Shown here: one piece after another, positions 3,876 to 55,730 of the stretch
How the letters are laid out: each line of letters opens with the position of its first letter
How positions within the stretch are numbered: position 1 is the first letter of the stretch
Assembly: GCA_017469925.1 (NCBI GenBank)
Contig: JAFUFK010000016.1
Location: 186,001 to 250,000, forward strand
Source: Bacteroidaceae bacterium
GTDB taxonomy: Bacteria; Bacteroidota; Bacteroidia; Bacteroidales; Bacteroidaceae
Direction of reading: 5' to 3'
DNA length: 64,000 nt
The notes under the pieces: generated by a model
What the model was told of the DNA's origin: nothing
The model's database searches: none
The model's input: only the letters and a program-made list of their open reading frames with translations
Made by a program: the position numbers and the translations under genes

Positions 3876-4721
3876 CTATAGTTGAGAGGAGAATTGGAAG
3901 AGGGGTGAGAGGTTAGAGGTTAGAGGTGAGGGGTGAGAGGTGAGAGGTGAGAGGTCGGGGGTGAGAGGGTCCTTAAACAGGCCAAAGACGGCGCTGCCGC
4001 TGCCGGACATGGCGGCGTAGAGGGCACCGGCCTCGTAAAGGCGGGCCTTGAGCTGGGCGATGGTGGGATGCTGGGGGAAGACGCTGCGCTCGAAGTCGTT
4101 CTCTATCAGGTCGCGCCACTGGCCGACGGGGCGCAGGATGGCCTCGGAAAGGTCGTGCCGGGGCCGCAGTGGCGTGACGCCCTGATAGGCTTCGCGGGTG
4201 GAGACGAAGTCGCCGGGCTTCAGCAGGACGAGGTGGAGACCCGAGAGGTCGAGGGGGATGGGCTGCAGTTGGTCGCCGATGCCCGTGGCGAAGGCGGCCC
4301 GATGGCGGATGAAGAAGGCGCAGTCGGCTCCGAGCGGGGCCACGATGCGTTCCATCTCTTCCTCGGTGAGTCCGAGGCGTAGGAGGTCGTTGAGGAGCAG
4401 GAGGGCATAGGCGGCATCGCTGCTGCCGCCGCCCAGCCCGGCGCCGGTGGGGATAGACTTGCGCAGGCGGATGGCCAGGGGCGGAACTGCGAGGCCCCGG
4501 CGGCGCAGGGTCTCGACGAGGCGCACGACGAGGTTGCCGTTGGGGTCGCCGGCTACGGGCAGTCCCTCGAGCCGGAAGTCGTCGGCCGAGGCCTCACGTA
4601 TTTCCAGTTCGTCACACAGGGGGATGGGATAGAAGACGGTTTCGAGGTTGTGGTAACCGTCGGGTCGGCGCTCTGTCACGTAGAGGCCGAGATTGATTTT
4701 CGCGCAAGGGAATGTTTTCAT
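3876..4721 (-). CDS. ispE: 4-diphosphocytidyl-2-C-methyl-D-erythritol kinase
   Basis: Cytosolic GHMP kinase of the non-mevalonate isoprenoid pathway; it phosphorylates CDP-methylerythritol on the 2-hydroxyl. The N-terminus has AKINLGLYVTERRPDGYHNL, the ATP-binding glycine-rich motif PTGAGLGGGSSDAAYALLL is at residues 91-109, and the C-terminal GHMP motif MSGSGSAVFGLF is near 240. The last roughly 30 residues are a seven-residue periodic tail (PLTPDLS, PLTSHPS, PLTSNLS) encoded by tandem heptamers at 3901-3970. Normal IspE ends shortly after VFGLF, so this tail is an addition. The ATG is four bases after a TAATTTTG element, so the transcript is probably leaderless. Confidence 0.93.
   Translation of the reverse strand: MKTFPCAKINLGLYVTERRPDGYHNLETVFYPIPLCDELEIREASADDFRLEGLPVAGDPNGNLVVRLVETLRRRGLAVPPLAIRLRKSIPTGAGLGGGSSDAAYALLLLNDLLRLGLTEEEMERIVAPLGADCAFFIRHRAAFATGIGDQLQPIPLDLSGLHLVLLKPGDFVSTREAYQGVTPLRPRHDLSEAILRPVGQWRDLIENDFERSVFPQHPTIAQLKARLYEAGALYAAMSGSGSAVFGLFKDPLTPDLSPLTSHPSPLTSNLSPLFQFSSQL
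3901..3970. repeat. heptamer tandem repeat (GAGGTGA type) in the ispE 3' end
   Basis: About ten imperfect copies of a 7-nt unit (GAGGTTA, GAGGTGA, GGGGTGA and similar). It is read in frame as the periodic tail of IspE. Confidence 0.9.
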
Positions 4722-12040: not shown

Positions 12041-12096
12041 TCTTTTTCCCCTGAGATAACCAAGTTTTTCCTCACATTTATTTATCTTCTAACGAA

Positions 12097-12184
12097 AAGA
12101 TAGTTATCTTACACCGAACGGATAGTTATCTTTCTGCAAGAAGATAGTTATCTTACACCATTAAGATAGTTATCTTTTTGCATG
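12097..12184. repeat. 22-nt-period array B (palindromic AAGATAGTTATCTT core)
   Basis: Four units start at 12097, 12119, 12141 and 12163. Three carry the near-palindrome AAGATAGTTATCTT exactly and one carries it with two changes. The spacers are variants of ACACCGAA and TTTGCATG. A degenerate fifth copy is in register at 12075. Confidence 0.9.
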
Positions 12185-12190
12185 AACAAG

Positions 12191-20032: not shown

Positions 20033-20066
20033 AAATTAAGAATTAAGAATTAAGAAATAAGAATTA
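20033..20066. repeat. heptamer tract (AATTAAG)
   Basis: Three exact AATTAAG copies plus variants, between two divergent promoters. Confidence 0.85.
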
Positions 20067-20512: not shown

Positions 20513-21151
20513 TCTTTAGCCCCCCTCATTCAACCGCCCATTCGTAGAGGCCGGCCGACTTGTCCTTGTTTATCACTACCTCCAGACGGACGGCGGTGGT
20601 GCGGACAGGTGTGAATCGTACGGTGCAGGGTGCGCCCTTCATGACGGGGTACTGGTCGGCACCGGGCACCTCTTGCCACTCGCCGGCTTCGGTCTTATAG
20701 AGCAGTCGCCACGAGTCGGGCACCTTGCAGCCCTGCCAAGGTTGGTCGTCGTACCAATAGACGGTCGATTGACTGATAGTCGATGCCTCGGGGAAGGTGT
20801 AGGAAATCCACTCCGTCGAGCCCTGCTTGGGCCACCAGTGGGTGTAGGGGATGGAACGGTCGTCGCCGTTCTTCGGGATGAGGCGGTCGTTGATGCTCTG
20901 GAGCGAGGGTATGCGCGACGAGGTGCCAATCTTGCTCTGTGAGGCCAGCGTGGGCGGAACGGCAGGCGTGGTGGCGCGCAGCTGTTGGGGCAACCATACC
21001 ATCATGCGGCCCGGGCCGCGGTGGTTCCAGGCATAGTAAGGGATAAGGCGCAGGCAGACGTCGTCGGTCGTCAGCCGGCCCTCGCTATCGAAGTTCAGCA
21101 GTTGGGCGTCGGTTTCTAACGTCTTCAACCCTACCGTCAGGGGGGCATCCT

Positions 21152-21186
21152 TAATTGTGAATTGTGAATTGTGAATTGTGAATTGA
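21152..21186. repeat. heptamer tract (AATTGTG), in frame in the GH127 gene
   Basis: Four exact AATTGTG copies plus a partial one, read as a seven-residue repeat (QFTIHNS) in the second half of the GH127 gene. Confidence 0.9.
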
Positions 21187-21399
21187 GGCTTCTGGTTCAG
21201 CAGCATGCCACCCAGTTCGAAGTCGTTGTCGGGCCACTCGGCGCAATAGACCAGCGGACCGCGCTCTACGGCTACACGACCTTGGTCGGCCGAGACACGC
21301 TCCAATGCCCGTACCAGTCGGGGCTCCATGTCGAAGTGAATCTCCACGCGGTCGCCCCGTTTCCACTTGCGGTCGATGCCCAGGTAACCATCCTCGAAA

Positions 21400-21420
21400 G
21401 AGGTGAGAGGTGAGAGGTGA
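21400..21420. repeat. heptamer tract (3 x GAGGTGA) at the GH127 frame break
   Basis: Three exact tandem copies. One copy changes the length by 1 mod 3, so copy-number change moves the downstream frame. Confidence 0.92.
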
Positions 21421-22913
21421 CTTCCTCGCCATTCACCTTTATGCTGTAGCCGAGTCGCTTGGTGTCGGCATACTCATAGAGGTCGCTGGGCACGGGACGG
21501 TTCTGCACCCATCCGGGGATGCGGATGCGCAGGCGGAATTGTCCGGCCTTGTTCTTCGTGATGGTCAGCAGGATGTCGCCGTCCCAGGGGTATTGGGTCT
21601 GTTGTGTCAGGGTCACATCCTTGCCGCCCACCTTCAGGTTGGCCGTGTTGCCGCCGAAGAGGTTGACGTAGAGGTCGCGGTCCTTTGTCTGGTAGAAGTA
21701 GCCGGGCACGGAGGGGATGAAGCGGCAGATGTTGGAGGGGCAGCAGGCGCAACCGAACCACGCCTGGCGCTGGTGCTGGCCCATCGACTCCAAGGGGTTG
21801 GGGTAGAAGAACTTGCCGCCGTCGAGCGACACACCGGACAGGACGCCGTTGTAGAGCGTGCGCTCCAAGACGTCGTAGTACTTCGATTCGCCGTGCAAGA
21901 GGAACAGGCGGTGGTTCACATAGACATTACCGATGGCGGCGCACGTCTCGCAGTAGGCCGACATGTTGGGCAGTTCGTAGTTGCGTCCGAAGGCCTCGCC
22001 GTTGGAGGTGCTGCCGATGCCGCCGGTGATGTACATCTTCCGGCCTACGATGTTCTCCCAGATGCGGTCAATGGCTTGGATGTAAGCCTTATCACCGGTG
22101 AGTGCAGCCACGTCGGCCATACCCGAGTACATGTAGGCGGCGCGAACGGCGTGGCCTACGGCTTCGTCTTGGTCAACGACGGGCTTGTGGGCCTGCGAGT
22201 AGTCGTGCACGATGGTGGTCTTTCCGCGATAGTCGAGCAGGAACTTGGCTTCGTCCAGGTACTTCTTTTCGCCCGTTACGGTATAGAGTTTGGCCAGTGC
22301 CATCTCTGCAATCTGGTGGCCAGGTACCACGCAAGCCTGTCCCGGATTAGGTCCGACCTCACGGCATACGCAGTCGGCATAGCGAATGGCGATGTCGAGG
22401 AACGTGCGTTCACCCGTGGCCTGATAGTGGGCGATGGCGGCCTCCACCATGTGGCCGAGGTTGTAGAGTTCGTGGCTCAGGTCCTCCTCCTTCACCCAGC
22501 GCTTCGGTCCCGACCACTCGTGGGGATGACTGGGGTTCATGGTGCGTGCGGTGTAGAGGTATCCGTCGGGCTCTTGTGCCGAGGCGATGATGGCCAGCAC
22601 GGAGTCGATGTAGGCCTTCAGTCGTTTGTCGGGGTAGGTCTGCAAGAGATAACTGGCCCCCTCGATGGTCTTGTAGGGGTCGGTATCGTCGAACGAGTAG
22701 CCGCTGACTTTTACCTTCGAGGTGTCCTCGCCTCGGAGTTGGCGGGCAGCAATCTCGAAGTTCTTGTATCGGCCTTCCGATTCGCATTTCGAGAATGCCA
22801 GGGGGATGGTCACATCGCGACTGGCCTGTAGCCGCTGGCCCCAGAACGTACCTTGCTCGATACTTACGCTCGTGAACGGTACGGGCTGAATGGGATAGTT
22901 CTGCGCGTTTGCC

Positions 22914-22945
22914 CAATTGAGAATTGACAACTGACAAATGGCAAA
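22914..22945. repeat. degenerate heptamers encoding the GH127 signal-peptide end
   Basis: CAATTGA, GAATTGA, CAACTGA, CAAATGG in series, read as CQLSILNWA within the signal peptide. Confidence 0.55.
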
Positions 22946-22997
22946 GAGGAATAGTAATAGGCGTTTCATGTGTAGTTAGTTATGAAATAAGTGATTA

Positions 22998-39461: not shown

Positions 39462-39549
39462 AACCAGTCACTGGTTAAATTTTAACCAGTCACTCCTTTC
39501 GCCGAAACCAGTGACTGGTTTCGGCTTAACCAGTCACTGGTTTCCAACG
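39462..39549. repeat. 22-nt-period array D (palindromic AACCAGTCACTGGTT core)
   Basis: Four units start at exactly 39462, 39484, 39506 and 39528. Units 1 and 4 carry the 15-nt near-palindrome, unit 3 a one-base variant (AACCAGTGACTGGTT), and unit 2 only the left half. Spacers differ. The array starts 27 nt after the beta-helix lipoprotein stop and marks the left side of the AT-rich island. Confidence 0.92.
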
Positions 39550-53326: not shown

Positions 53327-53347
53327 CACAATTAAGTGTCGGGACTT

Positions 53348-53435
53348 GTGCCACCAATGGCACAACCCCGTGCCACCAATGGCACAACTCCGTGCCACCA
53401 ATGGCACAACCCTGTGCCACCCGTGGCACAGCCTG
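53348..53435. repeat. 22-nt-period array E (palindromic GTGCCACCAATGGCAC core)
   Basis: Four units start at exactly 53348, 53370, 53392 and 53414. Three carry the 16-nt near-palindrome exactly and the last is a variant (GTGCCACCCGTGGCAC). Spacers are AACCCC, AACTCC, AACCCT. A different hairpin (GACAC / GTGTC) precedes it at 53325-53340. Confidence 0.93.
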
Positions 53436-53537
53436 ATGACCTTGTAGTAATCTTATTTTCGACTTGTAAGGCAGGCCCTTTTTTCGTTAAAAGAGCCTAA
53501 ATGTGCACTTGCGCTTGCACGTGTGCGAGGGATTTTG

Positions 53538-54545: not shown

Positions 54546-55730
54546 TTGGAAATAAAGACACCATATTACTTGGTAGAGGAGAGGTTGCTCAGGCGCAACC
54601 TCTCGCTGATTCGGCAGGTAGCCGAGGAGAGTGGGGCAGAGGTGATTCTGGCCTTCAAGGCCTTTGCCCTGTGGCGGACGTTCCCCATATTCCGTGAATA
54701 CATTGGTCACACGACAGCCAGCAGCCTCTACGAGGCCCGCTTGGCGATGGAGGAGTTTGGCAGCCCGGCCCATACCTATAGCCCTGCCTATACGGAGGAG
54801 GACTTCCCGACCATTCTCAGGTGCAGTAGTCACATCACCTTCAACAGCCTCAGTCAGCTCGGTCGCTTCCGCCCGATGGTGGAGGCCTACAATCAGGAGC
54901 ATCCCGAGCGACGCGTGTCGTGTGGCCTGCGCGTGAATCCCGAGTATAGCGAGATTGAGACCGAACTTTATAATCCCTGCGCCCCCGGTTCGCGCTTTGG
55001 CGTCCTGGCCGAGGACCTCTCACCTCTCACCCCTCACCTCTCACCCCTCACCCCTCACCTCATAGAGGGCTTCCACTGCCACAACCATTGTGAGAGTTCG
55101 GCCGAGGCCCTGCGGGAGAGCCTGAAACATCTGGAGGCGAAGTTCGGGCGGTGGCTACCTCAGCTGAAGTGGCTCAACCTGGGTGGTGGTCACCTGATGA
55201 CGCGCAAGGACTACAACGTCGGTCTGCTCGTCTCTTTAATAAAGGAATTGCGCGCGCGATACCCGAATCTCAGGATTATCCTGGAGCCTGGCAGCGCCTT
55301 CGCCTGGCAGACGGGACCGCTGGTGTCGAGCGTGGTGGATGTGGTGGAGAATCATGGCATCCGCACGGCCATCCTGGACGTCTCGTTCACCTGTCACATG
55401 CCCGACTGCCTGGAGATGCCCTACCAGCCCGAAGTGCGCGGGGCGCAGATGGTGGACTCCTCTCACCCCGCACCTCTCACCCCTCACCACCTCTACAGAT
55501 TGGGCGGCAACAGTTGTCTCAGTGGCGACTACATGGGCCTGTGGGCCTTCGACCATGAACTGCAGGTGGGGGAGCAGGTCGTCTTCGAAGACATGATACA
55601 CTACACGACGGTGAAGACCACCATGTTCAACGGCATCCACCATCCCTCTATCGTGCTCCGGCGGATGGATGGGGAGATGGAGGTCCTGCGACAGTTTACT
55701 TACGAAGACTATCGCGACCGCATGTGCTAA
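54546..55730 (+). CDS. nspC: carboxynorspermidine decarboxylase
   Basis: 394 residues from a TTG start in an AT-rich heptamer-like context; no ATG fits. PLP-dependent, alanine-racemase-type fold. VILAFKAFALW carries the PLP lysine; GLRVNPEYSEIETELYNPCA, FHCHNHCESS, GGGHLMTRKDYN, and YRLGGNSCLSGDYMG with the second-site Cys complete the active site. It makes (nor)spermidine in the alternative polyamine pathway. Two in-frame heptamer tracts (55016-55064 and 55468-55492) insert Ser/Pro/Leu/Thr/His-rich loops absent from the usual protein, the first directly before the conserved histidine motif. Confidence 0.92.
   Translation: MEIKTPYYLVEERLLRRNLSLIRQVAEESGAEVILAFKAFALWRTFPIFREYIGHTTASSLYEARLAMEEFGSPAHTYSPAYTEEDFPTILRCSSHITFNSLSQLGRFRPMVEAYNQEHPERRVSCGLRVNPEYSEIETELYNPCAPGSRFGVLAEDLSPLTPHLSPLTPHLIEGFHCHNHCESSAEALRESLKHLEAKFGRWLPQLKWLNLGGGHLMTRKDYNVGLLVSLIKELRARYPNLRIILEPGSAFAWQTGPLVSSVVDVVENHGIRTAILDVSFTCHMPDCLEMPYQPEVRGAQMVDSSHPAPLTPHHLYRLGGNSCLSGDYMGLWAFDHELQVGEQVVFEDMIHYTTVKTTMFNGIHHPSIVLRRMDGEMEVLRQFTYEDYRDRMC
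55016..55064. repeat. heptamer tract (7 units, CCTCTCA / CCCCTCA) inside nspC
   Basis: Seven tandem 7-nt units, 49 nt, in frame as the periodic peptide LSPLTPHLSPLTPH. Confidence 0.92.
55468..55492. repeat. second heptamer tract inside nspC
   Basis: CCCCGCA, CCTCTCA, CCCCTCA in series, encoding HPAPLTPH before YRLGGNSCLSGD. Confidence 0.8.

Follow-up and report, generated by a model that had tools for sequence, protein, structure and literature searches.

A heptanucleotide tract at the frame break of a GH127 gene is one of many dispersed heptamer arrays in a Prevotella-like bacterium

A GH127 gene out of frame at a heptamer tract

The DNA analysed here (the window, 64,000 nucleotides) comes from a Prevotella-like bacterium, of the Prevotellaceae group, that carries many short heptanucleotide repeats (Table 1). 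On its minus strand lies a gene that is GH127 by its catalytic domain (PF07944, E 9.9e-122, 407 bits against a cut-off of 24.9), with beta-L-arabinofuranosidase as the predicted activity. The gene contains perfect copies of CACCTCT, or GAGGTGA on the plus strand, for which TRF reports a period of 7, 3.1 copies and a 100% match over 22 nt. The upstream open reading frame (21272-22969, 565 aa) crosses this tract and continues with unrelated residues in the wrong frame as far as a stop at 21272. The correct continuation is in another frame, which begins 'FEDGYLGIDRKWK' just below the tract and has its stop near 20526. The middle domain, Glyco_hydro127M, is split by the tract, with profile positions 2-68 matched upstream and 73-95 downstream. 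The downstream part also includes a weak C-terminal match to the galactose-binding-like PF22633 that is below its cut-off. Because one Pfam domain straddles the tract and Glyco_hydro127C is found downstream, we conclude that this is a single GH127 gene broken at the repeat, as the first-pass annotation had claimed.

Table 1. Location of the GH127 gene and of repeat arrays (coordinates refer to the window, or to the named contig of the same genome)
Feature	Position	Strand	Basis
CACCTCT-type array at the C-terminal tail of ispE	3900..3956	-	array scan, NCBIfam
AATTAAG array, intergenic	20034..20066	.	TRF
GH127 gene, downstream part, different frame: end of PF20736, Glyco_hydro127C PF20737	20526..21398	-	Pfam
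Second heptamer array in the GH127 gene, CACAATT x4.7 (AATTGTG on +), in frame, encoding QFTIHNS	21153..21185	-	TRF
CACCTCT heptamer array (GAGGTGA on +) at the frame break	21399..21420	-	TRF, sequence
GH127 gene, upstream part: signal peptide, PF07944, most of the middle domain PF20736	21421..22969	-	ORF, Pfam
Degenerate CAATTGA-type heptamer array within the predicted signal peptide of the GH127 gene	22914..22937	-	by eye
CACCTCT/CACCCCT array, in frame inside nspC	55014..55062	+	array scan, NCBIfam
Short second array in nspC	55471-55488
Box-flanked intergenic arrays	C6 138707, C6 192370, C6 299794, C19 208565, C19 36597

Two separate genes were ruled out, as one domain spans the break and the compared relatives are single-framed. 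Ribosomal frameshifting was set aside. The mRNA at the break reads CCT CTT TCG, where a -1 slip would re-pair poorly, and a classical slippery heptamer was not seen by eye. The same annotation noted that adding one heptamer (+7) or removing two (-14) joins the two frames. This arithmetic is correct but carries no weight as evidence of a switch, because 7 is 1 modulo 3 and any offset can be restored by either +7/-14 or -7/+14. That annotation made no mention of two additional heptamer arrays in the gene, the in-frame CACAATT array and the degenerate array of the signal peptide (Table 1).

Of 117 GH127 loci, 98 could be compared across the site, with anchors on both sides. Two of these rows (L003 and L008) represent the tract, and in the other 96 the gap is in every case a multiple of three. 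The 96 include a paralogue from the same genome (L035) and two weak or spurious rows (L031, and L032 with a gap of -39), and they are not independent, because L019 and L037 are one locus and L013 and L074 are identical at the site. The relatives nearest by protein identity, L038, L039 and L040 (92, 90 and 89%), have a repeat-free 15-nt gap and no array in this position. The best solved relative of the L038 orthologue is 6ex6. In most compared relatives the corresponding loop is 9-18 nt of unrelated sequence, and judging from this length variation the tract probably occupies a loop of the middle domain. Heptamer-like arrays of other units were seen by eye at the loop in L016 (GGTCAAT, 33 nt) and L051 (CTCACCT-like, 30 nt). 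Further heptamer-like arrays lie there in L011 and L105 (30 nt each), and L009 has two copies. G001 has a shorter GH127, which was excluded as a frame break; G001 and G020 match just the first 143-144 downstream residues. A search of viral contigs with the array patterns matched 10 and 17 stretches, and a search of them for GH127 relatives confirmed none.

Downstream of the tract, 290 codons contain no further stop or frameshift. Relative to L038, the dN/dS of the downstream part is 0.18 and that of the upstream part 0.085; between relatives, the downstream part gives 0.076 (L038-L039), 0.33 (L038-L040) and 0.14 (L039-L040). Thus, the downstream part has not decayed, and the gene is otherwise open and constrained. 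Decay elsewhere in the gene, which the first-pass annotation had named among the observations that would count against its reading, was not found. The open downstream codons and the lack of clear relaxation also argue against a fixed early pseudogene, in which one slippage or indel event would have set this copy on the way to loss. The tract is out of frame in the one assembly, and the copy may be redundant with two other GH127 genes in the genome (818 and 829 aa, both open, with 55 and 56% identity), as a pseudogene would allow, and we consider this explanation decidedly unlikely.

Dispersed arrays of period 7 and their turnover

Dispersed, few-copy heptamer arrays occur throughout the genome, and the tract is one of them. 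In 1.25 Mb of this genome, period 7 accounts for 59 of the 74 exact short tandem repeats (at least 18 nt and at least 2.6 copies, periods 3 to 30). First-order Markov simulation of this 1.25 Mb, run three times and covering periods 3 to 15, produced in total one repeat of period 7 and one each of periods 5 and 8. Chance does not explain the period-7 runs, given 59 observed against one in the three simulations combined. The runs fall into 22 unit classes, the largest being ACCTCTC (10), AATTCAC (9) and AAGAATT (6). Across the 974 kb made up of the window and 80 GH127 loci, period 7 was found for 48 of 67 such repeats and for none in the simulation. At a looser cut-off and with no simulation alongside, six genomes of the same genus have 8, 6, 6, 2, 1 and 0 period-7 runs per 40 kb and four genomes of other families have 0, 0, 1 and 1.

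Allowing at most one mismatch, CACCTCT arrays gave 53 hits in this genome, which manual merging reduced to 28 sites, and the reversed control gave none. An exact 19-mer is present in four of 41 genomes, including this one; its reversed control had a single match, in G018. Local slippage alone is insufficient to explain the spread of one unit to many sites per genome.

A second class of repeats was observed in the same 1.25 Mb, comprising 40 tandem arrays of period 22 with about 3 to 8 copies. Three are in the window (12074-12186, 39481-39547 and 53337-53441) and 37 elsewhere, and 27 of the 40 have a palindromic core, e.g. GTGCCATCGGTGGCAC. Among neighbouring periods, 17, 19, 20, 25 and 26 have no arrays and 18, 21, 23, 24 and 27 have 3 to 11, counts that carry no shuffle control.

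Units differ between species at some sites. The CobB loop has CTCACCT here, TTCAATT in G043 and G044 and a degenerate CTCCATT-like unit in G041, all in frame and with a loop of 13 residues in each. In six other members of the genus the loop is repeat-free and has 11 residues, and the remaining members differ more. Upstream of one gene, the array unit is AATTCAC here, AATTTTC in G042 and TCCCTAA in G043, in spacers of 57, 59 and 50. Comparable arrays were found for only some of the arrays compared in this way: array 2 has none in G041, array 4 has none in three genomes, and array 6 had no comparison. Other intergenic arrays lack a counterpart in the relatives compared.

Length was preserved in the two arrays that were compared with L038 and L039. 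The second array of the GH127 gene is equally long but degenerate in both, and at the site of the intergenic AATTAAG array L039 has an array of the same length made of AATTATG and AATTGTG, mostly AATTATG. This speaks against rapid length change, although the arrays in upstream spacers do differ in length.

Intergenic AATTCAC and AATTAAG arrays of this genome have a CAAAGATAC-like box on one side and a GTATCTTTG-like box on the other, and these boxes resemble the -7 boxes of Bacteroidetes. In three related genomes, blocks of about 60 nt from the box-flanked arrays have 80-94% matches at 12 or more places.

Arrays inside ordinary genes

CACCTCT arrays sit in frame within ordinary genes, such as a thrA-like gene, nspC and cobT, where they encode SPLTSHL-type heptads. 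In reading them by eye the CACCTCT strand alone was taken as coding, and an automatic census considered both strands. NCBIfam matches above cut-off identify nspC, ispE, a bifunctional aspartate kinase/homoserine dehydrogenase, cobT and mfd (downstream frame) among the array genes, and those for trpE, cobS, cobB (partial frame) and a FucP-like transporter are below cut-off. The GH92, GH2, glycosyltransferase, ABC-2 permease and TatD labels are putative, assigned from sequence by eye. The double-ABC label is based on many ABC ATPase matches of the first half and on a single frame in relatives.

Among the in-gene CACCTCT arrays, 24 were chosen and classified by eye; 21 keep the frame, where one third would be expected (binomial p 6e-8). 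Eight arrays were excluded from the 24 as gene edge or intergenic (C6 189900, C6 26363, C12 40733, C13 6996, C14 62940, C14 62982, C19 92957 and C20 31379), and some of these could be extra breaks. The three broken arrays are in GH127, mfd and the double-ABC ATPase gene. In mfd the frame is lost at C6 413348-413379; the orthologous frame is open (1131-1177 aa) in 11 of 13 genomes, and G011 and G017 are without one among the matches listed. Three of 13 genomes have the double-ABC gene as a single frame of 490-508 aa.

Six of the arrays have an exact run of at least 22 nt, and these include all three broken ones; none of the 18 arrays with shorter runs is broken (Fisher p 0.0099). The threshold is post hoc: at 20 and 24 nt the p values are 0.11 and 0.10, and a threshold-free rank test gives p 0.015. 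The association fits slippage but is not strong. Another account would be an assembly or consensus artefact, with an assembled copy number that differs from that in the cells. The assembly is a draft (28 contigs, 85.8% complete), and miscounted copies would fit three genes broken at one repeat type. However, ordinary reads are longer than the 22 nt of the tract, and elsewhere in this assembly an array keeps its frame with an exact run of 35 nt. We regard an artefact as very improbable.

The automatic census of all units in the 1.25 Mb classified 55 arrays as 13 continuous, six shifted, two continuous with stops, 28 at gene edges and six intergenic. The six shifted arrays include those of GH127, mfd and the double-ABC ATPase gene; the other three (C6 236930, C19 264958 and C20 114072) resemble gene ends and were not counted as breaks, and one flagged as continuous (C20 221675) is probably intergenic. 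In the 80 loci from relatives, 35 arrays comprised six continuous, two shifted, two continuous with stops, 14 at edges and 11 intergenic. Both shifted arrays have stops inside the array and are probably gene ends. The four continuous arrays with exact runs of at least 22 nt are all in frame, and L072 has a 34-nt array with internal stops. No convincing break was found at any of these 35 arrays. One array of the relatives, at 4704-4779 of L078, is 76 nt long, of AACTCTC type and in frame, in a gene that by eye resembles an aconitase-family enzyme.

In cobB, two frames are divided between the halves of the gene, in this genome and apparently also in two relatives (L180, L215 and L226). It was excluded as an additional break because the split is upstream of the array; L215 and L226 have a similar two-frame layout.

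Origin of the break and known heptamer repeats

Heptamer arrays with other units have been described elsewhere. TAACTGA direct repeats are reported from Beggiatoaceae, cyanobacteria and a few Bacteroidetes (MacGregor 2015, PMC4679880), and the TAACTGA class is absent from the 22 unit classes found here. Like the arrays described here, they are dispersed 7-nt direct repeats with few copies per set and many sites per genome, and with no mobility mechanism evident as far as that account goes. In contrast to CACCTCT, the TAACTGA repeats are described there as mostly intergenic, with in-gene sets mainly at protein ends. The present arrays also have a different unit, lie in frame inside ordinary enzymes and, at some sites, have arrays of other units as their counterparts in relatives. 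The GGGNATC repeats of Xanthomonas and Nostoc, for which the authors deem a role in phase variation unlikely (Rehm 2015, PMC4692102), are likewise spread through genomes near genes of varied function, preferably as four units according to that report. They are described as G-rich, quadruplex-forming and under-represented in coding regions, whereas CACCTCT contains neither GGG nor CCC and forms arrays within coding sequence. Long simple sequence repeats were associated with ten genomes of Proteobacteria, Cyanobacteria and Actinobacteria, none from Prevotellaceae, in the study of Mrazek et al. (2007) as related in PMC4679880. In our literature search, with most subscription journals outside its scope, in-frame heptamer arrays in Prevotellaceae genes were not found.

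The known case closest to a switch is hmw1A of Haemophilus influenzae, where a heptanucleotide repeat of 13 to 24 copies phase varies and expression is graded (PMC8262952). It offers a precedent for a selected contingency locus, in which the population would keep cells with GH127 in frame and out of frame and thereby switch the enzyme, or just its C-terminal domains, on and off. One feature of such loci is present, namely a tandem repeat with a unit that is not a multiple of three exactly where the frame is lost. The perfect repeat at the break, the open and constrained downstream sequence and the confinement of breaks to arrays with long exact runs also favour a contingency locus. Both systems have a 7-nt tandem repeat, and copy-number variation is described as a feature of hmw1A. 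However, the hmw1A repeat is located between promoters according to that account, and here there are just three copies within coding sequence, fewer than the 13 to 24 of hmw1A. Arrays of the same class lie within housekeeping genes, two other open GH127 genes are present, and GH127, mfd and the ABC ATPase lack a shared surface function. A selected contingency locus is thus, in our view, unlikely. The first-pass annotation had read the tract as a slippage switch. The break at a repeat stands, and slippage is its natural cause; the on/off switch is not supported for a tract that is one of 28 CACCTCT sites, in a class with 21 of 24 in-gene arrays in frame and with mfd and the double-ABC ATPase among its broken members.

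On balance, and with moderate confidence, we favour slippage in a lineage-expanded heptamer array as the event by which this GH127 copy lost its frame, a change that could in principle be reversed and that needs no dedicated switch. The CACCTCT family would have expanded in the lineage and dispersed genome-wide, with one member now in a loop of the GH127 middle domain that tolerates differences in length. Selection would hold most in-gene arrays in frame, and in long exact runs slippage by whole heptamers could alter the length and break the frame. Slippage is likely as the cause here. The GH127 copy may have been caught in the out-of-frame state, in which the predicted product keeps the catalytic domain but lacks the last part of the middle domain and everything after it, with a probable loss of function. 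The same slippage could restore the frame, as a by-product of the array class.

More speculatively, the lineage might run a process that writes 7-nt arrays into places where length is critical and sequence is free, such as protein loops and promoter spacers, so that a single unit spreads through a genome and species come to differ in their units by replacement. The newest arrays, still uninterrupted, would then slip and cause ordinary genes, including GH127, mfd and the ABC ATPase, to lose and regain frame stochastically. We find this doubtful.

The wider class of arrays is more interesting than the GH127 tract itself. The bacterial heptamer repeats described in the reports cited above (PMC4679880, PMC4692102, PMC8262952) lie mainly between genes or in promoters. 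In the present genome ordinary enzymes contain them too, as SPLTSHL-type peptide insertions most of which leave the frame intact, with other units at some of the loops in related species. If confirmed, these arrays would be a testable system for the spread, frame-keeping and occasional gene-breaking of simple repeats. They would also be a warning that, in assemblies from Prevotellaceae, a frame disrupted at such an array may reflect the state of an allele instead of an error of annotation.
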